Below, in pieces: positions 5,725 to 59,093 of a DNA stretch of 64,000 bases. Numbering within the stretch: position 1 is the stretch's first letter; each line of letters starts with the position of its first letter. The notes under the pieces are model-generated. The model was not told where the DNA came from. It did no database searches and was given only the letters and a program-made list of their open reading frames with translations. The DNA is taken from NCBI GenBank assembly GCA_008690995.1, contig VRMN01000001.1:3348001-3412000 (forward strand), in the 5' to 3' direction. The DNA is from Porphyridium purpureum (taxonomy: Eukaryota; Rhodophyta; Bangiophyceae; Porphyridiales; Porphyridiaceae). A program made the translations under genes and the position numbers.

Positions 5725-6564
5725 CTCTCTTGCCCTCTCGTCCCCATCTCTCACCCCACCCCCTTGCGTGAGACCCGCCTTATCACATCCACAAGCCGAA
5801 ATCTCCATGTGTTCTGTTTTTCCGTTCTGTTTTCGCGTCGCGCCTCGAGCTCGATCAAGTACACTTGCATTCAAACTGAACCTTCACATGGTACTTTTAT
5901 ACTCAAAACACCCTTTTTTCATAGACGTCATCGGTTCTCTGTCGCCCTCCTTTCGGATCGACTCCCCGCGGCGTTTGTTTCTTTCCGGTTTGGTTGGTTC
6001 TTATTCTTTCTCATCATAGTAAACGCACCCTGCGTCTTGACGCGGTTCGGAAGGAGCGCGTGCGTGAGTGATACGTGCGGCTACTAGCTTCCTCAACGAT
6101 AAGAGTACACTGTACACTACTGAAATGGAGAGGCACGAACTGTACACCTGTTGGGCGTGGAGGTTCTGCGGAACGCGGATGAGGTACTGCGCGATGGTTC
6201 TCAGCACGAGGAAGTGCTGGGCGTGACCCTGGAAGTAACTGGGCATGCGGGTTAGATTGAGGGTTGCCGGAAAGCGCGCGCGAAGTTGGAGTGGGGGAGG
6301 GGGAAGGAGCGGAAGACGCATAGGGAGAGAGCAAGGCGGCGAGAAAGGTCGAGGTGGCGTGCGGGCGGGAGCGCGTGCGGGGAAGGAGCTCAGCGTTGCG
6401 TCTTTCTGCGCGACTCATATAGTTCTTTGCTTATTGCGCTGGACGAGTGGCGCGTCGGTTCGTGGGGGAGGTTGCGTGGGTGGACGTGAAGAACGCAACA
6501 GAGCGGTGGTTGCGCGACGGTCGAGCTGGGTGTCTCGTGTGAGACGCTGCTGCGGACTTTTGCG
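5725..6564. promoter_or_regulatory. Divergent promoter region ACC / bromodomain gene
   Basis: No gene is seen here. On the minus strand TATAAAAG (5894-5901) is a candidate ACC TATA box, about 420 bases upstream of the ACC start. GTACACT occurs twice at 6105-6118, arranged head to tail, and TGTACACC follows at 6141-6147; these belong to the GTAC-type element that recurs between genes across this window. The short open frames in the interval are GC-driven and show no domain. Confidence 0.45.
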
Positions 6565-8637
6565 ATGGATCTCGAGCAGCAAGCAAGTGAGCTGGCCGAG
6601 CAGCGCGCCAAGATCATGCGGGAACTGCAAGAGCTGGAAACGCACGGAACAGGAGAGGATGGGGGGCTCTCAAGCATCGAACTTGCGGTCAAGACTGATG
6701 AAGAAACGGCGCAAACGTCGTCCGCCCCACAGCCCCATGCCGAGGAGGCCAAGTATCCTGCGGGTTTCGAAAGTTCGGTGCGGGACGCAAGCACGGCACG
6801 CCCGTCGCGAGGTACGGGCGGTTCCGCGGCTTTGGCTTCAACGCCGCAAACCGCCCAGCAAGAAAACTCAGCGGGACAAAGACAAACCTCGGCACAAGAA
6901 AGGGCGCCTATAAATAAGCATGGCGGTAAGAATTTCTACGAATTACTGCTCGATTGCGAGAAGGAAGTGCGGGATGCGAAGGGCTTCTCGGACCTCGAAG
7001 CGGCGGCACGCGGGGAGATCAAGGTTTTGCGCGTCCGCAAGGGCGAGTCGGCACCAAAGCACGCCAAGTTGCTGTGTAAAGTACCCAACACGGGAGTGGA
7101 TTTTACAGTACCCATCAACGTCGTCGGCTATTCGGACGTCGTGAAGACGCCGATCTGCCTGAATGAAATCCGGGACAAAATTCGGCAGGGCGAATACTGG
7201 AAGGCGGAGCAATACCTGCAGGATATGGAGCTTCTTGCGCGCAACACGCACGCGTTCAACCGAGGCCCGGATGTAGATTGGATCTGTCAGCATGCCGATA
7301 TTATGCTAGAGGTAGCGCACGACGCCGTGCTTGCCCGCGGAGAGGCGTTGGACGCTGCTGAGAAGGAGCTTGAAACCGGACTGGTTGTTCTTCCGGAGCG
7401 CGCCAAGCGCAACTCGAATCGTAACTCGCTCGATTCCGATAGGCCCAGAGGTTTTGGTGGCTCGCCCGCGGGGAAACAACAGCAGCAGGAGGAATTGCCA
7501 GAGGTTGACTCGATGATCCAGATTTATTCGAGCACGCACCGTAAGTGGCGCACAGCGCGGCTGATGTCTTACAACCGCGACAGAACGAGGGCGGTCGTAT
7601 ATTATGAGGAGCTTGGTGGTGAGGGGGAGGTCGACATGGTGCACGGTAAGTGGAAGCTGGCGCCCGTTGAACCGCAGACACTTGCCAAAACGAGCATCAC
7701 CTCGACACAGGCAACAGTTCAGCAGCAGGCTTCGCCGCAGCGTCGAGCGTCTGGTTCCAGCGGCGGTGAGCACAAGCGCAGGCGGACAACAGATGAACCA
7801 GCACAGCTTTCGCTTGCCGTGGATGAAGGCCTACTTGATAGGTTGGAAGAGATCAAGTCAACGGTTGGCGAGCAACTCACTGCGCAGGTGCGCGGGATTG
7901 ACGCCAAACTGGAGACGCTCAGCCAGCCGGTAGTGGAATTTGACGACGCCAAGCTTGGCGTGTTGCTTGATAAGCTTGAGTCGCGTTGCCGTGTACTCAT
8001 TGAGACAGCCAAAATTGAGATCGATACCAAGCTGACCTTGCTTTTAGCGCAGAAGGAGGCCCGAATGATAGAAGCCGTGGACCGAGTGGTAAACAGCCGG
8101 ATGGAAGAGTGGGTCGCGCGTATGGATGCAGATCGTAAGGCGCGCCACCACCACCACCATCATCACGGTAGCCGTGGTAGTATCCACAAGGACGCTAATC
8201 ACTCGAACTCGGTCGGCGATAGAAGCACGGCGGAGCAGCCTGGGACAGCAGGGGGGGCGTCTCGTGGATTCGAACTTTCAGACAGTTTGTCAAAAAGTCC
8301 GCCTGTCTATGAGCAACTACCGATCGGCTCGCGGCTTTCGCCTCGTGCGGCGGCCGTGTTGGGAGTGGATTCGGGCATTCTGATGAATGGCGGCGTCGAG
8401 CTCAGCGCGCACCATGACGAACCTACGTCTGAAGGTAATGGCGCTGCCGGAATGCGCTCCGCAGGAAATGCTGAAGCGGTGAAGCCTGGTCCTGCTTTGC
8501 AAAAGCAGTTCTACGGAGACGATGTCGTAGAGCTGGAGACGGCGGCCGTCGCAGAGGAGCCTGAGCCTGAGCCTGCGCTTACGATGGACACCGAGGGGCA
8601 TCCAAATCAACGTGTACATATGGACATAGAGCCTTAA
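6565..8637 (+). CDS. Bromodomain protein with Tudor-like domain and His tract
   Basis: Probable chromatin reader of 690 residues. An N-terminal coiled stretch (1-30) is followed by a bromodomain-like region at about 175-258: a ZA-loop equivalent around VVKTPICLN, a helix EIRDKIRQGEYWKAEQYLQD and the acetyl-lysine-binding Asn in HAFN (N232). A Tudor/SGF29-like beta barrel follows at about 316-369 (IQIYSSTHRKWRTARL, then VVYYEE). Residues 420-520 are helical and charged, with a run of seven histidines at about 527-533 and an acidic disordered C-terminus. Bromodomains bind acetyl-lysine and Tudor-like folds bind methylated residues; that this protein reads both marks is inference. The gene converges on DXR with 231 bases between stops. 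The ATG at 6565 is the first in frame. Confidence 0.8.
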   Translation: MDLEQQASELAEQRAKIMRELQELETHGTGEDGGLSSIELAVKTDEETAQTSSAPQPHAEEAKYPAGFESSVRDASTARPSRGTGGSAALASTPQTAQQENSAGQRQTSAQERAPINKHGGKNFYELLLDCEKEVRDAKGFSDLEAAARGEIKVLRVRKGESAPKHAKLLCKVPNTGVDFTVPINVVGYSDVVKTPICLNEIRDKIRQGEYWKAEQYLQDMELLARNTHAFNRGPDVDWICQHADIMLEVAHDAVLARGEALDAAEKELETGLVVLPERAKRNSNRNSLDSDRPRGFGGSPAGKQQQQEELPEVDSMIQIYSSTHRKWRTARLMSYNRDRTRAVVYYEELGGEGEVDMVHGKWKLAPVEPQTLAKTSITSTQATVQQQASPQRRASGSSGGEHKRRRTTDEPAQLSLAVDEGLLDRLEEIKSTVGEQLTAQVRGIDAKLETLSQPVVEFDDAKLGVLLDKLESRCRVLIETAKIEIDTKLTLLLAQKEARMIEAVDRVVNSRMEEWVARMDADRKARHHHHHHHGSRGSIHKDANHSNSVGDRSTAEQPGTAGGASRGFELSDSLSKSPPVYEQLPIGSRLSPRAAAVLGVDSGILMNGGVELSAHHDEPTSEGNGAAGMRSAGNAEAVKPGPALQKQFYGDDVVELETAAVAEEPEPEPALTMDTEGHPNQRVHMDIEP

Positions 8638-8868
8638 ATCCGGCGCGAGGTAGGCACAATGAGCAAGGGGGAGTGAAGCACCAATGATCACGGGATTCGT
8701 AGGTTTAATTCAGAAACAGTGTAAGTTTAAAAACGGACCAGCAACGGATCAACGTCGAGCTCCCGAGATGAACCGTGAACGGCAATGCGGTTCCCCTGAA
8801 GAAGTCTGGCAAAGGCCGATACATGGAAAAACATCCGGCATATGATGCAAAACCCGGCGGTATCAGGC

Positions 8869-10517: not shown

Positions 10518-10581
10518 GTACAGTTAGCCCTGGAGTACAGTGACGTTTGTGGAGGTACACTAGAGCACGCGTGTGTACACT
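10518..10581. promoter_or_regulatory. Four-copy GTACA(G/C)T cluster upstream of DXR
   Basis: GTACAGT at 10518 and 10535 and GTACACT at 10555 and 10575, all in the same orientation, spaced 17, 20 and 20 bases. The cluster lies in the 255-base gap between the amine oxidase stop and the DXR start. Its role as a promoter element is inferred from recurrence elsewhere in the window. Confidence 0.45.
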
Positions 10582-10602
10582 CCGGGCAAGAGCTGCGGCA
10601 AC

Positions 10603-16724: not shown

Positions 16725-17555
16725 TCACCTACTCTGGGTAGAGAACCACCAGTCCATGAGTACTGCTCGGCACTGCAGGCACTCGAGCTCTGATTGTAGC
16801 AGAGTTCGGATATCATTACCATCGTCATCCACACGGTAAGCCCGGTCATGCAGATATTCGGGTTTCAGCATGACAGAGTTTTTGATCACCGCGACACCGC
16901 CGATGAGTCTCTGGTTCGAAAGCGAGCTGTTGATGAGCCACCCAGAACCATGTCCTCGGTCATCACAATCGTTGTCGTCGTTCAGAAATTGCAGGCTGTC
17001 GACATCGCTCCTCGCAATACCAAGCTCACGCAAAAGCACGTCGTACGCTGTGTCGATCAGGCTTCGTTGGTCCACACGCCCGCCCGGGAAATCGAGCGTG
17101 GCTCGACCAATGCCCGGCCGGAACTGCATCTTCGGAAACACGAGGCGGTTGCGGTGAACCGTCAGTATCACAAGAGAGTCTGCGCGCTCGATGCGCCAGT
17201 AGTCCAACAAGGCGCTTTCGTGATTGCGCAGTCTCTCAAGGATGATCGTCATCCACGGCGATTGGATCGTGGCGAGCGTCGCGACCAGTTCCCAAGGAGA
17301 CACCTTGGTTTCCTCCCTCTGTCGCGAGTCCGCCCTCGAGACGTTGGATGGGTCCACAGTGAGTACACATCGCTGCCTTCCTCTCGCGTATCGAGTCTGC
17401 GGGTGTCTCAAACTCACGCGCTTCTCGCTTCTTAAACCATCCTCACCCCAGCCACCCCGCGCTCGTGACGTGGCCGCTCTTGCCAGGCAAGAATGGCCCA
17501 CGGCAAACGCTGCGCGGCGGACTTCTAGGCCCCGATCGTGCCGCTCTCTCTTCAT
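16725..17555 (-). CDS. Nudix-like protein with a degenerate Nudix box
   Basis: Protein of 276 residues. The segment from about 105 to 230 has the look of an ADP-ribose pyrophosphatase-like Nudix fold: VILTVHRNRLVFPKMQFRPGIG, then TLDFPGGRVDQ, then an amphipathic helix ending RELGI. The canonical box GX5EX7REUXEEXGU is not met: the first Glu is Ser (RVDQRS) and the REUxEE glutamates are reduced to RELG. It may be catalytically altered, a binding protein, or act on a substrate through other ligands. The first about 80 residues are Arg-rich and unconvincing, so the true start may be further in (ATG at MTIILERL) or an intron may be present near 17380. It diverges from the DUF2009 gene with 117 bases between starts. 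Confidence 0.6.
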   Translation of the reverse strand: MKRERHDRGLEVRRAAFAVGHSCLARAATSRARGGWGEDGLRSEKRVSLRHPQTRYARGRQRCVLTVDPSNVSRADSRQREETKVSPWELVATLATIQSPWMTIILERLRNHESALLDYWRIERADSLVILTVHRNRLVFPKMQFRPGIGRATLDFPGGRVDQRSLIDTAYDVLLRELGIARSDVDSLQFLNDDNDCDDRGHGSGWLINSSLSNQRLIGGVAVIKNSVMLKPEYLHDRAYRVDDDGNDIRTLLQSELECLQCRAVLMDWWFSTQSR

Positions 17556-17672
17556 TCATCTGCTGTTTCCATGGGACGGAACTGTCTCGGACACCCACAT
17601 TGACGAGCGCCTTGTGTGCACTGCGAGACACGGAAGGTTGAAGCGAGCCGGCGTCCGGGCAAGAGCGCAAAC

Positions 17673-19532
17673 ATGTCGAAACTTGCGCAGGCACTTGAGG
17701 AAGGCCAAGAGGATGTGGGCCGAGAAGGGATGTCCGAGAGCGGCCACGCGGGCATGGAAACGTGGGACGACGCGGCAATCCAGAAGCAGGCTCGCGAGGA
17801 GGAGGAGAAGCGTGCGTATCTCGATCAGGTGATTCAGCGCCCTGATTGGGATTCCGAGCAAGATGTAGCAAAGGTCAGGGGCGCGCTCGTGGCACTGCTC
17901 GATGAGCTGCGTGAATCCAACTCGTTCAGGCAGCAGGCTACGCAAGGCGAAGCCGCACGCCTGGGACAGGAAGACGCGGCAAGCAAAAATGGCGCGGTAC
18001 ACGCGCACGAGGTGACTGGAGCAGGAATCACAGAATCCCATGACGATGGGTCGAATAAGGCGGACGATTCTGACGATGAAGATGATGACAGCGATGATGA
18101 CATGGACGATGAGGATGCAGATATTGAGGAGCGGGCCAGGTACATTCCTTTGCGGCTCACCCATTCCGAGCGAAAGCTTTTGAGACTGGTCTCAGCGGCG
18201 CTGAACGTGTGCGAATACACGGACAATGTGGATGTGCTGATAACCAAGACTCAGCGTCGGCATCGAATGCACGCGCAGTTGCGTGAGATCTGCGCTGTTT
18301 TGAGTGGGCTACTTGTGGCGAGCGATTTTGAGGCCGGACAGAAAGTTGTCGAAGCACGCGAGTTTTCAGATATGCAAGATTTCTATCAGAATGCGTTCGA
18401 GGTGGCACGCCGCCATAAGGTGTCCAACCCGGAGCGTTTGCGCTCGGATTACGGGAAACTGATGTATCTACTACAGGACGCAGTAAGTGCAGAGGTAAAC
18501 GCGATGCTCGAGTTCAACCCTGTCACCCCATTGCGCACAGTTTATTCCGTGCTCCATGAAGCTGGCCTCGGGCAGATGCTCCGAGATCCGCGGATGCGTG
18601 TCGCGACGATGGAAATTTCGCCCATGGGCAAGACGCGTCCGCAAATCCAGGCTGAAATTAGGAACAAGGAGCGTGCCATCAAGTCCCTCGTTCGGTCGTT
18701 TGCCAGCTCAGCGACCGAGTCTGTGGCCAGCACAGTGGAGCAGTGTATTTACTCCATTGGGGACAACAGTTCGTTTCTGCTCGCGTCGCGACAACCTTGC
18801 GACGAGATGATTCATCTTCTCGAGCACTTGTTTCATCCAGAAAAAATGGCGTCCGCAGATCCTGCCATGATGCTTAGTATTGTACGCGGACGCGACGGCG
18901 CACGCCTGACGCATGACCACCGGCGACAGTACAATTATGTGCTGCAGTCATTGCGGTTGTGGCGAGAGATTTCACACCGCATGTTCAAATTGTGGTACCT
19001 TGCTGAGCAGGACTTGCTTGATCCCGATGTTCCTTATAGCTTGCGCAACACGGGGCAGGGCTTGCACAGGGTGCAAGGTGCGCATCGCGTGTACAGAGAA
19101 ATGAACTCAATCGTCACCAAAGTGCAGCGCGCCATGGGGGATGCATGGGTGGGCAGCAGTGTGATTCACCTGGGTGACCATAATGTGCCGAATGCGCTTA
19201 CCTTCATCGATAAGTACGCCCAGGTCCCGCGCATTTTGAACCCGGTCTTGAATGTGATCCGAACTCTGCCAGAGTTGTGCAAGCGTGACCACCAGGTCAA
19301 AGAGTACATCGAACGTTCGTTTTCTGGTGTCAGGCAGGTTCAGACCGCAATTCTGCGAGATTTTTTCCGCCACGCGTTTGACGGCTCTGGCGCCGATAAT
19401 TTTATGGACGCTGGAAGCTGCATAGATGGCCGGCTCACGAGTGCCTGGAATTGGTGCAGCAGCATCGAGAAGAAGTCGTATTTTCCGGTCTTTTTATTGA
19501 CGGGCTTCTCCGGTTTTGATGGACAGTTTTAG
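17673..19532 (+). CDS. DUF2009/UPF0652 family protein
   Basis: Eukaryotic protein of 619 residues from a widely conserved family of unknown function. An acidic N-terminal region ending in a long Asp/Glu run (about residues 125-155) precedes the conserved block: AREFSDMQDFYQNAFEVARR, YGKLMYLLQD, CIYSIGDNSSFLLASRQP, ARLTHDHRRQYNYVLQSL, TGQGLHRVQ, VGSSVIHLGDHNVPNALTF and the closing DGSGADNFMDAGSCIDGRLTSAWNW. The protein ends with LLTGFSGFDGQF, the typical end of the family, so it is complete. The ATG at 17673 is the first in frame. Its 3' end faces GET3 across a 323-base convergent gap in which nothing else is seen. Confidence 0.88.
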   Translation: MSKLAQALEEGQEDVGREGMSESGHAGMETWDDAAIQKQAREEEEKRAYLDQVIQRPDWDSEQDVAKVRGALVALLDELRESNSFRQQATQGEAARLGQEDAASKNGAVHAHEVTGAGITESHDDGSNKADDSDDEDDDSDDDMDDEDADIEERARYIPLRLTHSERKLLRLVSAALNVCEYTDNVDVLITKTQRRHRMHAQLREICAVLSGLLVASDFEAGQKVVEAREFSDMQDFYQNAFEVARRHKVSNPERLRSDYGKLMYLLQDAVSAEVNAMLEFNPVTPLRTVYSVLHEAGLGQMLRDPRMRVATMEISPMGKTRPQIQAEIRNKERAIKSLVRSFASSATESVASTVEQCIYSIGDNSSFLLASRQPCDEMIHLLEHLFHPEKMASADPAMMLSIVRGRDGARLTHDHRRQYNYVLQSLRLWREISHRMFKLWYLAEQDLLDPDVPYSLRNTGQGLHRVQGAHRVYREMNSIVTKVQRAMGDAWVGSSVIHLGDHNVPNALTFIDKYAQVPRILNPVLNVIRTLPELCKRDHQVKEYIERSFSGVRQVQTAILRDFFRHAFDGSGADNFMDAGSCIDGRLTSAWNWCSSIEKKSYFPVFLLTGFSGFDGQF

Positions 19533-21695: not shown

Positions 21696-21702
21696 GTACA
21701 GT
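21696..21702. promoter_or_regulatory. GTACAGT element upstream of GET3
   Basis: Single GTACAGT copy in the 147-base gap between the zinc-finger gene stop and the GET3 start. Listed because it matches the element that recurs across the window; a single copy is weak evidence by itself. Confidence 0.3.
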
Positions 21703-21730
21703 GAGTGTTCAGTGTTAAGAAGGGGGAGCT

Positions 21731-25156: not shown

Positions 25157-25556
25157 CGCATTGCCAGCTCGCTTGCCGTTCAACTCTGCGGCACCCACCG
25201 CACTTTCACCTACACGTCGCCCCTTATCAGTGTGCGGGCGAGACCTTGCGCCTGCTTATCCGCCGCACAGCCTCGCTCCGCCCTATTCTGCGCCCGTGAT
25301 TTCTCACACCTGTGGCGCGCGCGTGAGAACATCTTTCCGGGTGAGCTGAGCGTGCGTGTGTGTTAAGCTCTGCGGACGGTCCCTCCAACGCGCATGTGGG
25401 GTGTGAGCGTTTGTTGCCAGACTTCGAACTTTGCATCACAAAACCACGAAATCAACCCCCCCTTGAAAAAAAACACGGAAAATTACTTTTTCGCAGTACT
25501 TTTGGAATTTCCTTCTTCCCCCCTTCGTCTAGGACGTCCGCACGCCAAAGGTGAGT

Positions 25557-25585
25557 CGTGTGTGTGTGAGAGAGAGAGAGAGGGA
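25557..25585. repeat. (GT)n(GA)n microsatellite
   Basis: A run of GT dinucleotides passes directly into GA dinucleotides. Simple repeat in non-coding sequence. Confidence 0.8.
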
Positions 25586-26923
25586 GGTCATGACGATGCT
25601 GGTGCTGGTGATAAGATGATGAGCATAAGCGGTTCTGCGCGACGTCGCGGTTGCAAGTGTCGCCGCTCACCACAGCCCTCATTCCAATCCACCTATCCGC
25701 CGACAGCTGCTGAAACCAATGAGTAAAATGAGCGGAATGAGCGAATGACCACATGACCTACTGCGTGTGTGCCTGATAGGGCGTCGAAACTAGAGACAGG
25801 ATGGTGAGGACGCGCGTTCCATTTTGTGGTGCTACACACGTTCGTGCTCACTCGCTCACCCTCCTCCCCTCACTCCCTCCTCCGCATCGTCGCTCTTTTG
25901 CGGTAGCCTTGGGTGAGCAGAGCGGCACATAAACATTAAGGATCATGTGTGCGCATGGTGTCCCCCCCCCCTCCGTCGTTCCTCCCACGTTCGGGTGGGT
26001 GCGTGCACGTCAAATTGCCGATGAAATCAAAACGTCTTGTATTCTACGCCGACTCACACGGCCTGACGGAAGCTTGGTTGTTTGGTTTCAGCTCATGACG
26101 TGGAAACACACGCAAATGCGCCGGTCGCAGCGCGCACGCAAAGCACTCGTACAAGCGTGCCGCTTTTGGGGGTGTGAGCACTGAACACTATAGACGTGCA
26201 CTGTACTCTTCGCACGAGCTGGCGCGCGGCCACGTGTGAGCGCTCGCAGGCCGCGCAGAGAGGCGCGTTGCGCTCGGACTACACGGTGTGAGCGGTGGAT
26301 TGAAGCGCGAGTCGTGCACCGGCGTTCTGCTCACGCAAACAGATGGCCGCGTCAGACCGGACTCTGGCTTTGTATCTCGAAGCAAGCCTGCATCGCCGCG
26401 GCATTCGATGATGGTGTGCGCCGATTTGCGCGCAGCTCTCTGCACAAGGCTCTGCAGCGAGCGCACAGCACACGAGGGGCACTTGGCTTCGATTCGGCTG
26501 GTGATGTCGCACGTTCTGAGCGTTCTATGCAGTGGCGCGCACGCTACCACAACGCTGCACCCGCCGTGACCGCGCGTCCTGGTCGCACCCACGCGCCAAA
26601 GGCTTCAGCATGACTGCGTTGAAGACAATTCCTTCTTGGAAGATGATTTGTTCCACCAGACGTGCATCCAGGTCAAGAGCACCTTCGCTTGCGCAAGTTC
26701 TGAAATAACGGAACATGCGGGGGAGTGTGCGGACCGTGGGAAGGAATAGAGCTGCTCGAGGCCGCCACTGGCATGATACGATAAATCTGCATGCGGGGAC
26801 CGCCAGCGACGCGGGCAGGTGGCTGTGCACTTCTTGGCCCTGTCGCTCTGCGGGTCAAGATCACTCTCAAGTGCCTGCGATTGCGGGTCGATGGATTGGT
26901 GATCGACGTGGACACGCGCACCT

Positions 26924-26967
26924 AGATAAAAAGAGCGCGCGACATGCAGAGCGCGTTCTTTTTATCT
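26924..26967. repeat. 17-bp inverted repeat with 10-base loop
   Basis: The left arm 26924-26940 (AGATAAAAAGAGCGCGC) is complementary to the right arm 26951-26967 at 16 of 17 positions. The arms combine an A/T-rich outer half and a GC-rich inner half. It lies about 60 bases upstream of the TATA box of the membrane-protein gene, so it could be a dimer-binding site or a cruciform. Confidence 0.7.
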
Positions 26968-27025
26968 CTGTGAAAGCGGCGCGGTTCTACTTTGCAGAGG
27001 ACAGATGCTCCGCCGGATGGAGGAA

Positions 27026-27033
27026 TATAAAAG
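27026..27033 (+). promoter_or_regulatory. TATA box (TATAAAAG)
   Basis: TATAAAAG 283 bases upstream of the ATG of the type I membrane protein. It is a canonical eukaryotic TATA sequence in the right orientation; the distance implies a leader of about 250 bases or a 5' UTR intron. Confidence 0.5.
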
Positions 27034-27315
27034 CTCGCCGGCTACCCCGGCAACGACGGCGCGAGGCACGGCTTGCGACCGCCGTCGTGACAGAACATCT
27101 AGGCCCCCGTCATCGAGAAAGGAGTGGAGCAAGCCAGAGGTAAAGCAAGCAAACCAGCGAATCATTGAAGACGACGCTGTGAGTGACAAGCAAAGTCCTA
27201 CCTGGGAAACTGACAGGGTGCACCAGCAAGCTGGCGCTGGGTTTGGCGGTGTGGCAAGGGACTCGAAATTGTGGTGACAGTTGACTGCTGGCCGACCAGT
27301 CATACACCCGTGAGA

Positions 27316-32064: not shown

Positions 32065-32095
32065 GTGTACACTTTAGGTGTACTTGGGTGTACAC
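32065..32095. promoter_or_regulatory. Triple GTGTAC cluster between ARM and AlkB-like genes
   Basis: GTGTACAC (32065), GGTGTAC (32077) and GTGTACAC (32088) with GTAC cores 13 and 10 bases apart. The first and third are palindromes. The cluster sits 154 bases upstream of the AlkB-like ATG and 153 bases upstream of the ARM gene ATG, almost exactly midway, which suits a shared promoter. Confidence 0.45.
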
Positions 32096-33370: not shown

Positions 33371-34096
33371 GCCGGTCACACGTTGAGTTTTACCACGTGT
33401 ATGGTCTTTCTGCCCGTATGCTCCCCATACATCGCCACCAAGCGCGATCTTTGCGTCGTTGATTCGGAGTCATGCAGCGAGCTTACGCTCTTGCGCAGGC
33501 TCGATCAAGCACCTGCACCCCGATGCGACGTCGCGCGTCCGCGTACGTGTGTCAAGAACTCGCGTCGCACTCTGTATGAAAATAGGCTAGTTTAATAGGA
33601 AGTGAGAGGTACACTCCGTGCGCACCCACGTGTACAGTTCCTTCTGCGCGCGATGACGTTGTGAGGTGGCTCCGAGTCAGACCATCCACGTCAAGGCACG
33701 GAGCGCGCTCCTGTCGTTGTTGCACAACGCGCGTGCGAAATTCATTCGGGCCATGTGAACACGAAGGTGTGCGTGACATGCCAGTGTGATGTCCGCGTCG
33801 ACCTTCTGACTGGGCTCGTTCCTGGCCCTGGTCTCGCCACGACATTGACCAGGTGCAGATGTGTTTCCCCGAACCTAGCATGTCTGCTCATCTCAGGGAC
33901 CGATCAAATATTGACACATGGCTCGACTGTGGAGACGCTAGCTACACGCTTGGACACGCAGGCATGGACATAACGACGCTGACCGTGTCCGACGGATTCT
34001 ATCTTTCTTCGTACCACCTGCTGCGTGTGCATGCGTTCGGATTGCAGGCAAGCATATAAATGGACCTGAGGAGCACGACGGCCCAGGAAGCATTGG
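33371..34096. promoter_or_regulatory. Intergenic region (0.7 kb) with paired GTAC elements
   Basis: No convincing gene is seen between the AlkB-like stop and the orphan gene. GTACACT (33609-33615) and GTACAGT (33632-33638) are 23 bases apart in the same orientation, about 460-490 bases upstream of the next start. Short open frames here lack domains. Confidence 0.4.
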
Positions 34097-37625: not shown

Positions 37626-37684
37626 CTTTTATATAACACCTTCAAACGTGGAAGCTGATTTTTCACCGCAGAGCACGGTACAGT
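37626..37684 (-). promoter_or_regulatory. SppA core promoter: GTACAGT plus TATATAAAAG
   Basis: Read in the gene direction (minus), a GTACAGT-type element at 37678-37684 is followed 42 bases later by TATATAAAAG (37626-37635), then the SppA ATG at 37544. This is the clearest case in the window of the GTAC element at a fixed place relative to a TATA box. Confidence 0.5.
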
Positions 37685-37766
37685 GCTACTGAACTTCACG
37701 CACGAACTCCGCGTGCTTTGGTTGGTGTTGCGGGGGTTGCACGTGCGGCTTGGGGCTCGACGTCCA

Positions 37767-40421: not shown

Positions 40422-40436
40422 GTACCTATACTGTAC
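40422..40436. promoter_or_regulatory. Two GTAC elements upstream of eS24
   Basis: TGTACC (GTAC at 40422) and CTGTACA (GTAC at 40433), 11 bases apart; the second reads GTACAG in the gene direction. They lie in the 300-base gap between the IF-3 stop and the eS24 start. Confidence 0.35.
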
Positions 40437-40476: not shown

Positions 40477-41731
40477 TTACTTCTCGGGTTTGCTCTTGGA
40501 CGGCTTCACAAACAGCTCCATGGGCACGGGCTTGCGCGGCACGCCCATGCGGTCACACTCTGCATCCTTCTTGCGCTGGTCCTCGATGGTCGTCATGCGC
40601 TCGATCACGCCGTGCGACTCGAGTAGAGTGCCTGCTTTCTGCAGATTGTTCAACGCAGACTCCTGCAAATTGCCCTGGCCCTTTCTGAACTGCACAAAAA
40701 CACGCACGCGCCGGCCTTCCTGGTCCACATATCGACAACATCAAATCCAAAGTACGCGAATACACGAGTCTCTCACGTCAACGTCTGTTCTTCTTTCGTG
40801 CGCTTACGCAAGGGAATCCTCGGTCCACCAAAACGGCTGACATAGACGCCCTCATTCTGACAGTCCACAACATTGGAAAAAAAAAGAAACAGGCTGGTGC
40901 ATGCAACGTACCTCGAGAAACTGGATCACCTTTTTCATCTTGATATCGAAATCATGTTGCTCCGTTGCGGGGCCGAGCCTGATTTCCTTTGGCGCGGCCT
41001 GAACGGTCCCACGGATAAAAGCAAAGCGAAAGCAAGTCAACCCCAAAGTTAGCGCGGCCCTCCCTGCATTGGAAAAGAGAAAAGAAAAAAAAAAAAAAAA
41101 AAAAGAAGCGCGAACTGGAAGGGGAAGCACAACCTCACCGTCGCAGCGATGTTCAATTAATTAGACACAAGATCATTCAGAGGGATGTCTCTGTCTGCGA
41201 ACATACCTGCTTCGACGCTGCGCGGGCTTTTTTCGCAACCTCTTTTGTCTTGCGCCGCTCGGCCGAGACAAACTCGTCATACTTCAAAAGCTTGCATACG
41301 GGTAGATCTGCCGAAGCAGCAATCTCAACTAAGTCCAAGCCCTCGCTCTTGGCCGCCTGCAATGCATTCTCAGCCTGCATGGTCTCCGTCGTGCCGTCCA
41401 ACTTGACCAAACGAACTGTCTGATGTGCCGGGATCTCCTCATTCACGCGGTAGCTTGGCGATCCTCCCGGGGTTTTGCCGCTACGCGCAAGCAAGGACGA
41501 CCCAAGAGCGCGCTTGGGCATCTTGATCCCGTCCAAAAGTACTGACATGCGAGTACCGCATGGTCGTGTCCACTCCCATGGCGCCTGGCACGCGATACCT
41601 GCGATCCCGCGATCCAATCTAGGCGCTACCGCGCCTGTTGGCCTGTGCGCAACAACATCAGCGATGCCATACGCTCGTATGCGCGCACGTAAGCGCCAGA
41701 GGAGCCAATGCGCTCGTTGGCCGCAGAACAT
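40477..41731 (-). CDS. infC: Organellar translation initiation factor IF-3 (three exons)
   Basis: Bacterial-type IF-3, which keeps ribosomal subunits apart and proofreads initiation. Coding is split: exon 1 41207-41731, exon 2 40912-40998, exon 3 40477-40719 (all minus), giving 284 residues. Junctions are canonical and both phase 0: CAG/GTATGT ... CAG/GCC, then GAG/GTACGT ... CAG/GAA. The introns are 208 and 192 bases; the first has a long T-rich tract in the sense strand (A-rich on the plus strand near 41077-41103). Exon 1 encodes the N-domain (RVNEEIPAHQTVRLV, GLDLVEIAASADLPVCKLLKYDEF); exons 2-3 encode the C-domain (PKEIRLGP, IKMKKVIQFLE, RVRVFVQFRKGQGN). The ATG at 41731 gives MFCGQRAHWLLWRLRARIRAY, an Arg-rich amphipathic start favouring mitochondria; red-algal plastids usually encode their own infC. 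Confidence 0.88.
40720..40911 (-). other. Intron 2 of IF-3 gene
   Basis: 192 bases with GTACGT donor and CAG acceptor on the minus strand, phase 0. Joining the exons continues the IF-3 C-domain without loss of conserved sequence. Confidence 0.85.
40999..41206 (-). other. Intron 1 of IF-3 gene
   Basis: 208 bases with GTATGT donor and CAG acceptor on the minus strand, phase 0. It holds an uninterrupted T tract of about 20 bases (sense strand), unusually long for a polypyrimidine tract. Confidence 0.85.
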
Positions 41732-41831
41732 GGCCAGGCACACGCTTTGCTCCAAACTACCCTTGTCCAGTCCTTCTCGTCGAGGTCGAAAACGGTTTCC
41801 TTTATTGAAGGCGTGTGTACACCAGATCAAG

Positions 41832-42731: not shown

Positions 42732-43410
42732 TAGCTCCACCACGCTCCCGTCGCGCTGCTCACGGCGCTTCGCACGCTTTCTGCCCTTCACTCAGCTCAC
42801 GTTCGCTCGTCCCAAGTGTCGCAGGTCCAGCAGTCCCTGCTGTCCTACAGATTAGAAACCTGGCTATGCCGATGCGCACCGAGAGCCCAGCAAGCAAGTG
42901 TAGCACGCCACGTGTCACGCATGTAAGTTTTCCAGCGCGCACTCGGAGCCCCAAGCAACTTGACCACGCGCTGCGCCGAGCTTCACGCGCGGTTTCATTT
43001 CCATCGGAAATGTTTTCCCGCACGCTCGCCACCCACCGACCTTCTGCAGCAGACAGTCAGACCTCCCAGCCCACAATCCGGATCCGGTCGAAACGCAATG
43101 GTTTACCAGTTACCGGCTAAATATCATCCGTGAACCGTTAACCGTTAGCCGCTGTCCACAATTTATTCATGACTTGATACCCACACATTGAAGGGTGTAC
43201 AGTGCAGTGGTACAGCGGTTCATTTTGTGGCCAAGATTTTTTTCCATCTTTTTTTAATTTTTTGGGTGGTGGATTGGGTGGCGCGGCAGCTGGTGGCAAG
43301 GAGACGAAGCTGGTTGTGGCATGGTGAGGGTCGCGAGCGGTAGAGTGACGGGTGCGTGTTGATTCAGGACGGGTGCGAGCCGCGTTGCAGAGACGGCAGA
43401 GATCACAGAT
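42732..43410. promoter_or_regulatory. Divergent promoter region Nudix / mitochondrial carrier
   Basis: No gene is seen. It contains GTACAGT (43197-43203) and GTACAGC (43210-43216), 13 bases apart and about 200 bases upstream of the carrier, and two adjoining Myb-type sites AACCGTTA/ACCGTTAG (43133-43148). The second overlaps TTAGCCG (43145-43151), which is the reverse complement of CGGCTAA at 43114-43120. Confidence 0.4.
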
Positions 43411-45329: not shown

Positions 45330-46046
45330 GCCACACGCTGTTACTCACGCCACCCGCACACAACCCCACACGTCCTTCGTCGTCCAACCCCCCACCGCTC
45401 CTCCTACACACCTTTCCAACTCACCCTTGTCTCCCCTTCCATTTCATCCTGTCCCTCATACCCATCGAACCCTCTCCGTCCTTCGTGTTTATTTTATATT
45501 CCTGTCCATTGACGTTCTCCTTCCCATTGTCATCTTCTCAGCCTTCCACCCAAAATGGATCATAAGAACCTTCATAACAACCTCATAACAACTTTTAACA
45601 ACTTCGTAAGAGAACAAGAACAATCACGCCGTGAGCGGCTAGCATCAAGCCGCGCCACAAACAAGGGAGAGACACAAAGGAAGTCCGTGACGGGAATGGC
45701 AAGGAATGGCGTGGGCGGTGGGAATACCTGATGGATGCCCCACGGAATGCTGTGGATTGGACAGGCATTGCAAAGGAATGGGACATGCGACGTCCTGGAG
45801 ATAGAGGTTCAGCTCGGGATGAAGGGTGTACAGTGGAGGCGCGGGGCGAGTACGGTGGTGGCGTACAGTGCGGGGATGGAGTCAGCGGTGCACGCGCGGG
45901 CGCGTTGGTGGAGGGAACGGAGGCGGGGAGTGAGGCTGCTGGATGGCGCGGCGGGCGCTGGGTGGGTGTGCGGATGTGCGGGGATGAGACGTGCGCTGTC
46001 GCCGGATGCGTCTGGCGGACAAGCGTCCAGCGCAAAGGATTCGCGG
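45330..46046. promoter_or_regulatory. Divergent promoter region THF1 / DUF547 gene
   Basis: On the minus strand TATAAAAT (45491-45498) is a candidate THF1 TATA box. On the plus strand GTACAGT (45828), GTACGGT (45850) and GTACAGT (45863) form a cluster with 22- and 13-base spacing, upstream of the DUF547 start preferred here. Confidence 0.45.
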
Positions 46047-49529: not shown

Positions 49530-49622
49530 GTGCGGTGACGTTGCGTGATTGAAATATCTTTATGCACTGTACATGTTGTCAGCGTCCGACGCAGCGAAAC
49601 GACTTTGACAACGACACGCTAC

Positions 49623-53422: not shown

Positions 53423-53464
53423 GTACAGTTAGAGCTGGTTTGTCAGTGTACATTGTGGTACAGT
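53423..53464. promoter_or_regulatory. GTAC cluster on the OPR side of the insertion
   Basis: GTACAGT (53423), GTACATT (53448) and GTACAGT (53458), 25 and 10 bases apart, about 190-230 bases upstream of the OPR gene start and 20 bases before the retrotransposon target site. Confidence 0.45.
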
Positions 53465-53483
53465 CCACGAAATCGGAAACGTG

Positions 53484-53488
53484 CGTTC
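53484..53488. repeat. Target-site duplication, left copy (CGTTC)
   Basis: CGTTC directly before the left LTR is repeated at 59052-59056 directly after the right LTR. Five bases is the usual size for copia elements. Confidence 0.85.
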
Positions 53489-53802
53489 GTGGGAACGATG
53501 AGGTCCCGCTGAACCGCGGACTCCCGTGTTCACTTGGCCGGCGGTGCGGCATAAGTACGTTCTGTGGAGCGGCCGGGTCCCGGCCGGATAACTAGCGAAG
53601 GTAAGAGACTCTTTAGCGTGGTGAGGTAAAGGTTCGTCGTTTATTCGGAGCGATAGGGAGCCGGCGCAGAATCGTCTGCGCGCCTCGAAGAGTCCGCCAT
53701 ATTAGTGGCCCACGTGTTGCACGTTTCGCCGTGCGCACCCGCACCCCTTTCGGGCGTAGCATCGATCTTTCTCGGCCGATCCCTTGGAGCACCTCTCCAA
53801 GG
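53489..53802 (+). repeat. Left LTR of the copia element
   Basis: 314 bases starting GTGGGAACGATGAGG and ending CTCTCCAAGG, nearly identical to 58738-59051. The ends were fixed from the target-site duplication; they do not show the common TG...CA form at the exact boundary, though TG starts one base in. Confidence 0.9.
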
Positions 53803-53816
53803 GTTATGAGCCCAGC
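53802..53816 (+). other. Primer-binding site matching half of initiator tRNA-Met
   Basis: GGTTATGAGCCCAGC at the left LTR boundary is the complement of GCUGGGCUCAUAACC, the anticodon stem-loop of an initiator tRNA-Met with its hallmark GGG/CCC pairs and CAU anticodon. Drosophila copia is known to prime from a cleaved 5' half of this tRNA, so the same mode is inferred here. Confidence 0.75.
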
Positions 53817-54098
53817 GGCGGAAGCCGTCTGCGCGTATATTGATCACATGCTTAACTTCGTGTTCGCTTGATCGGTCGTGGGTTTATTTGGTTTGTATCA
53901 TCTTTGCTTCGGGGAGTTGGCTCGTGTGGAACGTCGGGTGTCAACTTCGGACGCGGTCGTTGTGTCTCGCTTGACATCGACCCCAACCGCGATACGGAGC
54001 TCGTGAGTGATAGAATCAAGAAGCGAAACAGTCCATCGCCGGGACCATCACGAGATCGTCGCGCCAGGAGGCGGACCTCGTGATCACAACTGTCGGTC

Positions 54099-57000
54099 AT
54101 GGACGACCGTGAGCAGGAGCAGTCACGTCTGCGCGCAATTATGGCAGCGAGACAGCAATCGTTGGAACCACAACCTCTGCAGCAGGGTGGAGGTACGCAA
54201 GGCAATGCACAGGCTGGTCCATCGCCGACCGAGTTTGACATGTTGATGGCCAGGGTGAGAGCGGAATTATCCGCCGACTTACGCATGGCACAGCAGCGCA
54301 TTGAGGGTCTGGAGAGCGATTTGGCGCACGAAAGAGCAGCGCGATCGGCTTTGGCGTCCGCGGGCGCGGGGCAGGTGGTTCATCAGCGGGGAAAGTTGCT
54401 TGAACCTGCACGTATGCCGGCGTATGACGGGAAAAGAGACCTAGTAAAGATCCTGACGTGGATTTCGGCGGCTCGCGACCGAGTGGTTGAGCCGTACAAG
54501 GACGAAGTCGCGGCGGTTGGCGAATCTTGGGACGACGCAGCCGAAAAGAGGGTCGTTCGAAACCTCGCTGGGTTCCTGACGGATGACTTGCAGTTGTGGT
54601 GGATTCGCCTGAGGGAGCAGCCGTTCACGGTTGAAGCATTTCTAGCCGCGCTCGAGATGCGGTTTGCCCCGGTGAACCCAGGCGCTCGGACTAGAGATGA
54701 GCTGTTCGCGTTGGAGCAGAATGGCACGAGCGTGGAAGAGTATACAAATACTTTCTCCTCGCTCTGTCTGCGCATCGAAGACGCCACAGAGTCTGAATTG
54801 TTCGACAAGTACAAGCGAGGGCTTGACAAAGACATTAGGGTGCAAACCGAACTTAAGGGCACATCCAGCTTGGAAGAAGTTATCCGCGTAGCTTCGGAGA
54901 TCGATGCCATCATGCACCCGGAACGCGCCCGGACTGCCAAGAAAGGGCAGACGCCCTACGGGGACGGACCGGCTCCCATGGAGCTGGGCTCCGCTGAGCG
55001 CGGCGGGAAAAGCGTAGGTGCTGGCAGCGACGGTAAAAGAAAGAGTGGTCGAAAGAAGTGGAAGGCTCGGGACAGCGGGAGGAGAGATGGTCTGAAAAAG
55101 GATCAATGCGCCAACTGCAAACGCATAGGGCATTGGAAAAAGGATTGCCCGGAGCTCGCCGCACAGGCGGCTGAGCTGGAACTACTCACTGCGAGCACCA
55201 GACCAAAAGTCGAGAGGCTTGTGAAGAGAAAAATGTGGGTGAATGGTCACCAAGTCGACGCAGTGTTTGATACAGGCGCGACGAACACATATGCTTCGCT
55301 CGCTTTCTGTGAGAAAATTGGTGTGGCGGTGGACCGGCGCGCTGCCGTGGGAGGAGTTCGCTTGGCGGATGGTACCATGTGCAGGCCCGAAGGGACCGCG
55401 CGCCTGACGTTGAGAATGCATGGGGCTCGGGATGCAAAGTTGTCCGCGGTGGTACACAGAGCGCGTCACGAGCTCATAGTGGGCCTGGACTGGCTGAGGG
55501 CGCAGAAGGCGCATTTGTCCGTGGGAGGCATGGAACTACTCAGCACGGATGCGGAGAAAATCAATGAGAAGCCCAATGAGCCAATTAGAGCCACAGAGCC
55601 GGTGAGGGTTCTAGACCACGACCTTTTGCATATGCCTGCGAAGGAAGATTGTGGGATTTGTGCCCTGGGCAAAATACAGAGAGTGCGCGCGGTGCGTCGC
55701 AAAGAGAGTGACTCCAATGCAATCATCGGCTTTAATGAGGCCGTCTCCATTGATCTCGTGGACCCCTCCTCGGTTGGTGTGGATGGGACGAGATGGGTTC
55801 TGGTACACAAAGACGTCGGAACGGGCTGGGTCTCTGTGACGGGCCTGAGGAATAAACTCGCCGACACGGCCTCGTTCGCGTTTCGAGAGATACAGCGGGG
55901 CCGCGGTTGGCCTCGGCTGGTGAAAAGCGATGGCGGCGGAGAATTTGGAGGTGTTTTCGAAGACATGCTCCGAGACCACCTGGTTGCCCACGAAAAGGGC
56001 ATAGCGAGGCGTTCAAACACGCATGCCAGTCAAGAGAGGCTTCACAGGGACATGAATGCGACGGTGAGGGCGCTTCTGATCCAGTCCGGGTTGCCATCGT
56101 CATGGTTCTGCTTCGCGGCTCGGTATTGGGCGGATGCTCGAAATCTCGTTTGGGCTGGGCGCGGAGGCGGTGCCACCGCGTACGAGAAACGATTCAATAC
56201 TAAATGGAAATTGCAGCTGCCTGCGTTTGGCCGGGGCGTCGTAGTTTACGACGAGGCTTCCGACAAGAATGAACCGAAGGGCTCTGTCGCAATCGTGGTC
56301 GGTTTTCGGATACCAGAATCAGCAGTCATCAAACAACGACTGAATTGCCTGGTGATCCCTGTTTCAGATATGAGGCCGGCAGCGGCGCGATGGGTACAAG
56401 AATGGAAACTGCTCAAAGAAAAGTATCCCGTCGTAAGAAAACAGCTCAGGCCCGTTGAAGAAGAGTTCGCCCGCCCGCCGGACCCTAAACCAGTTGCTGA
56501 CGACGAGGGGCAGCAGTACCCTGGAAGCGGTAGGAATGATAAGAGCGACGAGACCGGCGAGACCTCGGAAACCGAGACGCCGGCCGACTCAAGAGAGAAA
56601 AGTAATGAGATTGAAACAGGTTTCAAAGAATGCGTACGTGCAAGCGGAACAGAAGCGCCTCCGACGGGGCCGCTTGCGACAGTAGACGGTCGATCGCGAA
56701 AGGGCTCGTGGAGCAGCGAGCAAATTGCGGCTATTTCGGGCGGCTTCACACGACTGGGTCCAAAGTGGTCGCAAATTATCAAAGAGAGTAAGGCCGCCTT
56801 GGCTGGTAAAACAGCGAAAGACGTGCGCTCGAAAGCGCAGGCGCTCGGATTGCTCGGCTCACAAGCCCAAGGTCTTGGCGAACACAGGCGCGGGAGGAGC
56901 GGGGCCTTGCGGCGCGCGAGGGTGAAGTTCGTAGAAGTTGCGGAAAAAGGGGTGTCGGCGCGGGCAGAGAAGGTCAGCGTGCCTCTTGCCGGAGCGACGG

Positions 57001-58691
57001 CCTTGGTTCAAGAGCTGCTGGTAACGCAGGTGATCGAATCCAAGAGTGCCATGGCCTCGAGTGCCGGTCGCGATGCTTTTGTCCGCGAGTTGACCGCGTT
57101 GAGAAGCGTCGGCGCGCTTCCGCTGGAGAAAGCGGTCGAGCGCAGAACGGCGACGCGAACGCCGCACGCACAGTTTGTGAAGCTGAAGGCCGTGTTCGGA
57201 ATCAAAAATGCCGAACTAGGGCCCAGCGCGTGGAAACACAAGTGCCGACTTGTGTGTCAAGGGTGCGTGGTTAGAGACGCAACCGGAACCCTGGTTGTGA
57301 ACCCATTTGATTGGGAGAAGCCGCCTGGTTTAGTAGCCATCAGGGCCGCATTAAGCGCAGCGCTGTTGGAGCACGGAGAACACGCTGACGCTGCGTTCTT
57401 CGACGTGGACAACGCATACGTACACGCGCCCCTCGGGGGTCCTCCGACATTCGTCGAATTAGCCGGTCTTACTCGCTGGTTGAGAGGTTGCATACCGTCC
57501 AGTCTGTCGTCAAAGCTCGAAGCCATGGAGAGGCCCGTCGTCAGGCTGCCCATGGCGCTGTATGGCTTGCCACGCAGCGGAAGCGACTTTGGAGCTCACG
57601 CACGGTCAAGACTTGAAGGTCTGGGTTGGAAAGAATCCGCCTCAGATAAGAACGTATACTGGAGAAAGCGTATGGGTAAGACGGAATGGACAGTCCTATA
57701 CGTTGATGATGGGGCGGTTTTCGGTGACAGTGGGGCAATACGGGAGGCGGTTGCGGAGATGAAAAAGGAGTTCTCCATCACCCGCGCGGTTGAATACATG
57801 CGCGAAGCGACAAAAGAAAACCCTGTGCGGTTCCTGGGCATCGGGTTCTATGTCGACAAAGACATGGAAGGTGCCTGGGTGATGAGTTCACGAGAGTATG
57901 CACGGCATGTGCTAGCAGACGGTCAAGAGAGGCAGGCGCGAAAGACTCCGATGTCTTGTAAGCCTGAGCCCGACAGAGATGGCGAGGTCTGTGACAAGAG
58001 CGTGAGACGCACCTTGGGGCGTATTTTGTGGCTGGTTCGGACAACCAGGCCAGATCTGGCATTCGCAGTTGGTACGGTAGCGCGCTGCACGGATCGCTGG
58101 GGTGAAGAAGCCGAAAAGGGCCTGAACGACATCATGCGGTACCTGCAGGGCAGTGCCGATGCGGTGTTGGTGTTTCGCGTGCCACCTCTTTCGGGTGCCG
58201 GCAGGGCCTTGCCTGTGTCTGTATCTTGTTATACTGACGCAGACTTCAGCGCAGAGAGGTCGACTAGCGGCGTGTGCACTTTTTTTGTTGGTAAGAATAC
58301 GAGACACCTTGTGGACTGGTCAAGTGGGCGGCAACGCCGGACCGCGACCTCAACCGCCGAGGCGGAACTGATCGCTGCACATACAGCAGTGCAGTATCGT
58401 GTCTTTCCGCTGGGCGTGTTTATCGAAGAATGGCACAATGCATGGCCAAAGGTGGCCATGTATGTCGACAATGAGACCGCGCTAAACGCGATCAACAAGG
58501 GATGGAGCGACAAGATGTTGCATCTTCACAAGATGCAGAAAATCAGCCTGAAATGGCTGAACGAAGTGTCCAAGGACGGCCTGGCAGACTTCGTGCACGT
58601 GAACAGCAAAGACAATCTTGCAGACGGTTTGACGAAGAATCTCGCAGTCGACTCGTTCCAAAAGCAACGCCATGGTTGGTGCGTCGTCTGA
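54099..58691 (+). CDS. Copia gag-pol polyprotein with a SANT/Myb-like insert
   Basis: One frame of 1530 codons. Parts in order: gag with coiled and capsid-like regions (about 1-300); a zinc knuckle of CCHC type (CANCKRIGHWKKDC, about 337-350); aspartic protease with DTGA; integrase with a Cys pair (CGICALGK) and a catalytic core around VKSDGGGEFGG; a linker holding a Trp-containing SANT/Myb-like segment (about 866-925, SWSSEQIAAISGGF ... KWSQIIKES ... DVRSKAQALG); reverse transcriptase with YVDDGAVF; and RNase H with CYTDADFSAE and STAEAELIAAH. Gag and pol share one frame, as in copia. It looks whole. Confidence 0.93.
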   Translation: MDDREQEQSRLRAIMAARQQSLEPQPLQQGGGTQGNAQAGPSPTEFDMLMARVRAELSADLRMAQQRIEGLESDLAHERAARSALASAGAGQVVHQRGKLLEPARMPAYDGKRDLVKILTWISAARDRVVEPYKDEVAAVGESWDDAAEKRVVRNLAGFLTDDLQLWWIRLREQPFTVEAFLAALEMRFAPVNPGARTRDELFALEQNGTSVEEYTNTFSSLCLRIEDATESELFDKYKRGLDKDIRVQTELKGTSSLEEVIRVASEIDAIMHPERARTAKKGQTPYGDGPAPMELGSAERGGKSVGAGSDGKRKSGRKKWKARDSGRRDGLKKDQCANCKRIGHWKKDCPELAAQAAELELLTASTRPKVERLVKRKMWVNGHQVDAVFDTGATNTYASLAFCEKIGVAVDRRAAVGGVRLADGTMCRPEGTARLTLRMHGARDAKLSAVVHRARHELIVGLDWLRAQKAHLSVGGMELLSTDAEKINEKPNEPIRATEPVRVLDHDLLHMPAKEDCGICALGKIQRVRAVRRKESDSNAIIGFNEAVSIDLVDPSSVGVDGTRWVLVHKDVGTGWVSVTGLRNKLADTASFAFREIQRGRGWPRLVKSDGGGEFGGVFEDMLRDHLVAHEKGIARRSNTHASQERLHRDMNATVRALLIQSGLPSSWFCFAARYWADARNLVWAGRGGGATAYEKRFNTKWKLQLPAFGRGVVVYDEASDKNEPKGSVAIVVGFRIPESAVIKQRLNCLVIPVSDMRPAAARWVQEWKLLKEKYPVVRKQLRPVEEEFARPPDPKPVADDEGQQYPGSGRNDKSDETGETSETETPADSREKSNEIETGFKECVRASGTEAPPTGPLATVDGRSRKGSWSSEQIAAISGGFTRLGPKWSQIIKESKAALAGKTAKDVRSKAQALGLLGSQAQGLGEHRRGRSGALRRARVKFVEVAEKGVSARAEKVSVPLAGATALVQELLVTQVIESKSAMASSAGRDAFVRELTALRSVGALPLEKAVERRTATRTPHAQFVKLKAVFGIKNAELGPSAWKHKCRLVCQGCVVRDATGTLVVNPFDWEKPPGLVAIRAALSAALLEHGEHADAAFFDVDNAYVHAPLGGPPTFVELAGLTRWLRGCIPSSLSSKLEAMERPVVRLPMALYGLPRSGSDFGAHARSRLEGLGWKESASDKNVYWRKRMGKTEWTVLYVDDGAVFGDSGAIREAVAEMKKEFSITRAVEYMREATKENPVRFLGIGFYVDKDMEGAWVMSSREYARHVLADGQERQARKTPMSCKPEPDRDGEVCDKSVRRTLGRILWLVRTTRPDLAFAVGTVARCTDRWGEEAEKGLNDIMRYLQGSADAVLVFRVPPLSGAGRALPVSVSCYTDADFSAERSTSGVCTFFVGKNTRHLVDWSSGRQRRTATSTAEAELIAAHTAVQYRVFPLGVFIEEWHNAWPKVAMYVDNETALNAINKGWSDKMLHLHKMQKISLKWLNEVSKDGLADFVHVNSKDNLADGLTKNLAVDSFQKQRHGWCVV

Positions 58692-58737
58692 ACCTCGAGA
58701 CAGATTGGAGTCCGGCGATTTGCGCGTGAGGAGGCGC

Positions 58738-59051
58738 GTGGGAACGATGAGGTCCCGCTGAACCGCGGACTCCCGTGTTCACTTGGCCGGCGGTGCGGCA
58801 TAAGTACGTTCTGTGGAGCGGCCGGGTCCCGGCCGGATAACTAGCGAAGGTAAGAGACTCTTTAGCGTGGTGAGGTAAAGGTTCGTCGTTTATTCGGAGC
58901 GATAGGGAGCCGGCGCAGAATCGTCTGCGCGCCTCGAAGAGTCCGCCATATTAGTGGCCCACGTGTAGCACGTTTCGCCGTGCGCACCCGCACCCCTTTC
59001 GGGCGTAGCATCGATCTTTCTCGGCCGATCCCTTGGAGCACCTCTCCAAGG
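58738..59051 (+). repeat. Right LTR of the copia element
   Basis: 314 bases, matching the left LTR with about one difference by eye. It ends 130 bases before the cyclin C start, so LTR promoter or terminator activity could affect that gene. Confidence 0.9.
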
Positions 59052-59056
59052 CGTTC
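59052..59056. repeat. Target-site duplication, right copy (CGTTC)
   Basis: Matches 53484-53488 exactly. Confidence 0.85.
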
Positions 59057-59059
59057 ACC

Positions 59060-59093
59060 GTACCTCTAGATAGGGTACAGTACAAAGTACAGT
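59060..59093. promoter_or_regulatory. GTAC cluster on the cyclin C side of the insertion
   Basis: GTAC cores at 59060, 59075, 59080 and 59087; the second and fourth are full GTACAGT. They lie 90-120 bases upstream of the cyclin C ATG and begin three bases after the retrotransposon target duplication. Confidence 0.45.

Follow-up and report, generated by a model that had tools for sequence, protein, structure and literature searches.

The 64-kb window of the Porphyridium purpureum genome considered here (the whole stretch of DNA that was analysed, 64,000 nucleotides) carries between its genes many copies of a short element, GTACA(G/C)T, which raises the question of whether this word is present in real excess and, if so, what kind of molecule reads it. 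A preliminary description, made from the letters alone, had placed the element in most intergenic regions and had proposed a core promoter or general activator element of this lineage. The excess in this window is solidly established and goes beyond what had been claimed: it is found only upstream of start codons, and the sites are sharply specific in sequence, clustered and indifferent to orientation. GTACA[GC]T, often preceded by a purine and then by a base other than C, is probably the double-stranded DNA site of a sequence-specific nuclear factor that would act on many unrelated genes.

Enrichment upstream of start codons

With a strict site defined as GTACA[GC]T on either strand, 36 sites were counted in the window, compared with 6.05 (standard deviation 2.14, largest 11) in 100 dinucleotide shuffles, and a search for same-strand pairs 3-30 bases apart gave eight matches (three of them overlapping, at DXR) versus 0.01 expected. 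To avoid reliance on a word picked by eye, a ranking was made of every 5- to 8-mer in start-bearing intergenic, convergent intergenic and coding DNA; it used only start-bearing blocks longer than 40 bp and retained the non-coding parts of a long terminal repeat (LTR) retroelement. GTACAGT was the top 7-mer of start-bearing intergenic DNA (15 seen, 0.6 expected, 10^-16.1; best value over 60 shuffled sets, 10^-5.2) and did not appear in the lists of the 12 leading 7-mers of convergent and of coding DNA. Among 8-mers, the extensions of GTACAGT were outranked by a poly-A 8-mer derived mostly from a single tract (13 of 16 overlapping poly-A/T 8-mers lie at 41085-41104, in the gap between eS24 and IF3). 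Two other words, TTCTGCG (8 copies upstream, 21 coding) and TCTGCGC (6 upstream, 24 coding), were rejected, each having a weak per-base upstream excess and copies in the LTRs as well; TGACAG, CACGTG, CCAAT and eight other words tested showed no strong excess.

The compartments were delimited with two sets of gene models, in which gene starts are inferred and distances to the start codon serve as a proxy for distances to the transcription start. The window was modelled with 27 genes. Of these, 24 match a Pfam family at E ≤ 0.001 (the best match lying under the Pfam curated cut-off for five of them: methyltransferase-like, ARM, AlkB-like, MFS and FAST/OPR-like) and three do not (an orphan gene and two unassigned open reading frames, ORFs). 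The first models give 7,747 bp of start-bearing DNA (18 blocks), 3,945 bp of convergent DNA (7 blocks) and 46,744 bp of coding DNA; the refined models give 8,279 bp (19 blocks), 3,945 bp and 46,212 bp, respectively. The two sets differ in the starts of DUF547 (ATG 45984) and IF3 (ATG 41548), which were moved after the sites had been seen; the DNA preceding each of these codons has, for much of its length, a negative or weak coding signal, with the first 90 bases at DUF547 slightly positive. ACC and SppA also have a weak coding signal at their beginnings, and their starts were kept unchanged. For compartment counts and block shuffles the LTR element was counted apart, and its two sides were treated as two blocks in both gene models.

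In the refined models, 25 strict sites lie upstream of genes, occupying 13 of the 19 start-bearing blocks (12 of 18 when the DNA flanking the LTR element is treated as a single region) with one to five sites per occupied block; the first models place 23 sites in start-bearing DNA (12 of 18 blocks), 13 in coding DNA and none in convergent DNA. Over 1000 shuffles of the start-bearing blocks, the mean was 1.23 sites (largest 7) for the first models and 1.25 (largest 6) for the refined, and at most five blocks were occupied. No strict site was found in the 3,945 bp of convergent intergenic DNA (0 of 7 blocks); the chance that none of 25 sites would fall in the convergent share is 6e-5, or about 2e-3 if the long convergent block 61447-62997, which possibly hides a gene, is left out. 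Most regions upstream of a start codon, rather than most intergenic regions, is therefore the correct scope of the observation. The coding DNA of the refined models contains 11 strict sites in 46,212 bp, and because 22% of 500 synonymous shuffles reach 11 (mean 8.36, standard deviation 2.76), these copies are explained by codon usage. The upstream excess is about 12-fold.

Specificity, arrangement and genomic context

Most one-base departures from the word all but abolish the enrichment. One-base changes of GTACAGT reduce its upstream count from 17 to 0-4, with the exception of the G-to-C partner GTACACT (8); at the last three positions, the count falls to 0-3 except for that same change at the sixth position. 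Four copies of GTTCAGT are found upstream (one in coding DNA), at 5872-5883, 21705-21716, 26177-26188 and 37685-37696, and because each is no more than 30 bp from a strict site (5859, 21696, 26200 and 37678, respectively), this variant may be a weaker version of the strict site. GTAC outside strict sites is not enriched (2.66 per kb upstream versus 3.64 per kb in coding DNA), nor is CGTAC (1.33 versus 2.64 per kb). On the left flank, a purine occupies position -2 in 22 of 25 strict sites and C occupies position -1 in only one. The full palindrome A[GC]TGTACA[GC]T was ruled out as the usual form, being present in 2 of the 25. Expectation-maximization (EM) from the seeds GTACAGT, TGTACAC and GAGGTAC ended in motifs that centre on GTAC, have 70-74 expected sites and are looser than GTACA[GC]T; a fourth seed, GCGCAGA, drifted to a purine-rich pattern.

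Strict sites cluster: 17 of the 25 have a neighbour no more than 50 bp away, compared with a mean of 6.1 in 10,000 random placements (p = 0.0004). Two finer regularities proposed for these clusters were not upheld. Spacing by one or two helical turns is not seen among 18 pair distances of up to 80 bp, which show no phasing at 10, 10.5 or 11 bp (Rayleigh p about 0.52 for period 10.5, with R = 0.19), and orientation is shared by 6 of 11 neighbouring pairs, a random-looking result. In blocks with a single start, seven sites are sense and eight antisense. Relative to the nearest start codon, site density peaks at 100-200 bp (7.7 and 5.4 per kb), and individual sites lie from 37 to more than 1000 bp away.

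TATAAA behaves differently. Within 300 bp upstream of 24 genes (a set without ADK, unk7 and the retroelement), it occurs five times in the sense orientation (5896, 27026, 34055, 37628 and 45493) and never in antisense, which provides a built-in positive control for a directional core element. A minority of promoters thus seem to have a TATA box. Four of these (ACC, the orphan gene, SppA and THF1) have one or more strict sites upstream of TATAAA, at a distance of 42 bases for SppA and 200 bp or more for the others; at ACC a further strict site separates TATAAA from the start codon. The fifth TATAAA precedes an unassigned gene at 27316, where the only strict site is 826 bp further upstream. The separation of 42 bases given earlier for SppA, from the TATA-like box TATATAAAAG (37626-37635, minus strand) to the strict site at 37678, proved exact.

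All 11 loci that had been named as carrying the element have at least one strict site (Table 1). Some of the additional copies attributed to them are variants, namely GTACAGC at eS24 and the carrier, GTGTACACG at AlkB/ARM, and GTACC at the cyclin gene; the 6-of-7 copy GTACAGC at eS24 is 11 bp from the strict site, start to start. Conversely, the start-bearing strict sites at 5859, 26200 and 49566 had been missed, as had GTGTACAC at 41815. The gene names given earlier are clear for ACC, bromodomain, DXR, GET3 (ArsA ATPase family), SppA (peptidase S49), eS24, mitochondrial carrier, THF1, DUF547 and a cyclin, whereas the matches behind AlkB, ARM and OPR are weak and Pfam does not resolve the cyclin as type C. 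The copies at DUF547 lie inside its longest ORF (from 45735), and at DXR the stop codon that ends the amine-oxidase gene is 21 bp away from the last copy of the cluster.

Table 1. Positions of GTACA[GC]T sites, related words and the LTR retroelement in the window
Feature	Position	Strand	Context
GTACACT	5859..5865	+	112 bp upstream of ACC start codon used
Four-site cluster	6105..6145	6105+, 6109-, 6112+, 6139-	Between divergent ACC and bromodomain genes; 6109- overlaps 6105+ and 6112+
Four direct copies	10518..10581 (10518, 10535, 10555, 10575)	+	129-bp gap upstream of DXR
GTACAGT	21696..21702	+	113 bp upstream of GET3 start; 28 bp from zinc-finger gene stop codon
GTACAGT	26200..26206	-	2.2-kb gap between zinc-finger gene and unassigned gene; >1 kb from both starts
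GTGTACACT and GTGTACACG	32065..32095		Between divergent ARM-repeat and AlkB-like genes; one strict site, 32067
Two direct copies	33609..33638	+	Upstream of orphan gene, 458 and 481 bp from start codon
GTACAGT	37678..37684	+	134 bp upstream of SppA
GTACAGT	40430..40436	-	256 bp upstream of eS24
GTGTACAC palindrome	41815..41822		Upstream of probable IF3 start; not strict, not counted
GTACAGT	43197..43203	+	Between divergent NUDIX and mitochondrial-carrier genes
Two direct copies	45828..45869	+	Upstream of probable DUF547 start (ATG 45984)
GTACAGT	49566..49572	-	93-bp gap upstream of MFS gene
Three sites	53423..53464	53423+, 53445-, 53458+	Upstream of OPR/FAST-like gene, 5' side of LTR-element insertion
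Two copies	59075..59093	+	Upstream of cyclin gene, 3' side of LTR-element insertion
LTR retroelement	53488..59051	+	315-bp LTRs 99.7% identical, CGTT at both outer ends

The LTR retroelement, which has gag and protease matches and a reverse-transcriptase match below the cut-off, contains no strict site in its 5,564 bp. Its empty site is a 334-bp divergent OPR/cyclin promoter with five strict sites within 103 bp; the two clusters listed separately on either side are thus a single cluster that a recent insertion has split. No relative was found with either the pol fragment of this element or the DUF2009 protein in searches of viral and genome contigs.

Elsewhere in an otherwise tight gene array, two long gaps, 25157-27315 (2.2 kb) and 61447-62997 (1.6 kb), may hide genes; the ORFs scanned in them have no Pfam match. 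Two abutting minus-strand ORFs (16725-17555 and 17556-18164), of which the second overlaps the start of the DUF2009 gene, are likewise without a Pfam match. Rfam and tRNA scans of the window returned no matches. In a comparison with solved structures, the best matches to eS24 include chains with plant-like names (eS24z).

The putative factor and alternative explanations

The location of the sites in start-bearing DNA, their sharp specificity, their clustering and their indifference to orientation together argue for a transcription-factor site on double-stranded DNA, and the suggestion of a general activator element of the lineage is consistent with sites found upstream of unrelated genes, in start-bearing regions only, in clusters and in both orientations. 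The mechanism can only be inferred. One protein, or one family, would read about 7-10 bp around the GTAC core, sitting mostly upstream of the directional core promoter (TATAAA-like where present), and might open chromatin or recruit the transcription machinery in the manner of yeast general regulatory factors. A weak first guess at the protein, from family abundance alone, is a C2H2 zinc finger; the available part of a survey of P. purpureum reports 60 C2H2 proteins among 199 factors, and no SBP, AP2 or ERF (PMC4827209). A bolder version, possible and on balance doubtful, is that a single undescribed factor uses clusters of GTACA[GC]T to mark most promoters of the lineage and acts as the principal promoter-defining (pioneer) factor where TATA is mostly missing, and that insertion of the LTR element (a single insertion) was steered to chromatin opened by this factor.

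Several points weigh against a general factor of this kind. The evidence comes from one window of one genome and from inferred starts. The changes of start at DUF547 and IF3 moved two strict sites from coding to upstream DNA, and the DUF547 signal is mixed; if these changes are not made, the result stands (23 start-bearing versus 13 coding). The coding count is above that of plain dinucleotide shuffles (3.28, largest 8 of 100). Fisher's p of 3.6e-13 is overstated because clustered sites are not independent, which makes the block-level count safer. Six of 19 blocks (28, 33, 82, 117, 283 and 434 bp long) have no strict site, and the positional preference is loose, with 4.65 sites per kb still present at 300-500 bp. 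Specificity is also imperfect: GTACACC is enriched about as much as GTACACT (6 upstream and 5 coding versus 8 and 6), the final base being less strict in the C form. Finally, EM from two other seeds gave a looser, nearly symmetric motif, A-N-T-GTAC-A-N-T, with about 74 expected sites, although part of this symmetry is built in because palindromic cores are counted on both strands.

The main rival is a narrower regulator, for example of cell-cycle, light or nutrient control, in whose targets the window happens to be rich. The blocks that lack a strict site, and the variation from one to five copies among those that have one, would suit such a factor, but 13 occupied blocks out of 19 would be many for a narrow regulon, and the adjoining genes span fatty-acid synthesis, isoprenoids, the ribosome, tail-anchored protein insertion, a cyclin, a protease and transporters. 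A restricted regulon is accordingly judged unlikely.

A role as a core promoter element, which the basal machinery would recognize directly at a fixed distance from the transcription start, is a good deal less probable still. Presence in most start-bearing regions and absence from convergent regions are what such an element would show, as is the position 42 bases upstream of the TATA-like box of SppA. This part of the earlier proposal nevertheless fits poorly with a distance to the start codon (the proxy used here) that ranges from 37 to more than 1000 bp, with both orientations and with up to five copies per region, and TATAAA is confined to the sense strand as expected of a core element, whereas GTACA[GC]T is not.

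The sites might instead act in RNA, as a signal in an untranslated region (UTR) or as a binding site of the PUF type. PUF proteins bind UGUA-N-A, which TGTACA resembles, but an RNA element would not be expected to be absent from all convergent regions, each of which contains two 3' ends, or to be divided almost evenly between sense and antisense in single-start blocks, and [AT]TGTACA[AT] has no upstream copies; there is very little to recommend this explanation.

An SBP-type element, resembling copper-response elements, shares the GTAC core and is scarcely credible, given that GTAC outside strict sites is not enriched, that CGTAC is rarer upstream than in coding DNA, that C precedes only 1 of 25 strict sites, and that SBP proteins are absent from the available part of the P. 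purpureum survey (PMC4827209); the link to SBP proteins suggested earlier is contradicted by these counts. The SBP, AP2-G-like and PUF or 3' UTR readings are all disfavoured by sequence tests within the window. An artefact of chance or composition, or a dispersed repeat, can be dismissed with similar assurance: the word had been picked by eye, but it ranks first among 7-mers in the unbiased ranking and withstands shuffled and codon-preserving controls with two gene models, the flanks of its copies are unrelated, and no longer repeat containing them emerged when seven site-bearing regions were searched for repeats.

A sequence-specific factor acting on many genes is thus the preferred interpretation. 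A search of the literature on red-algal promoter motifs, which logos, ambiguity letters, preprints and subscription journals would escape, found no genome-wide motif described, and one for the whole words GTACAGT, ACTGTAC, TGTACAGT and ACTGTACA, which motifs shown only as logos would escape, found no description of the element. The accessible part of a Porphyridium expression paper contains no promoter motif (PMC10866757). Red algae are a major photosynthetic lineage, and a single dominant promoter word would offer a handle on gene switching there, a pull-down route to the responsible protein and a part for expression engineering.

Comparison with known systems

Plant SBP proteins recognize CGTAC as their core. 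The SBP elements of plants and green algae (CRR1-type) have the GTAC core in common with the P. purpureum word but differ from it in that the specificity of GTACA[GC]T resides in the A[GC]T extension, not in GTAC or CGTAC. PfAP2-G of Plasmodium likewise has a motif with a GTAC core and intergenic sites; in the available part of the report on this protein, sequence context is inferred to be of low importance for the GTAC motif (PMC11417369), whereas the A[GC]T context is essential to the enrichment of GTACA[GC]T. AP2 and ERF proteins, moreover, number zero in P. purpureum in the part of the survey available (PMC4827209).

The nearest functional analogy is with the general regulatory factors of yeast. 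Reb1, Abf1 and Rap1 bind short specific sites in many promoters of a compact genome. Like theirs, the GTACA[GC]T sites are short specific words upstream of the starts of unrelated genes, present in 13 of 19 start-bearing blocks and in none of the seven convergent blocks. They differ from the yeast sites in sequence, in forming clusters of up to five and in belonging to an unrelated lineage.

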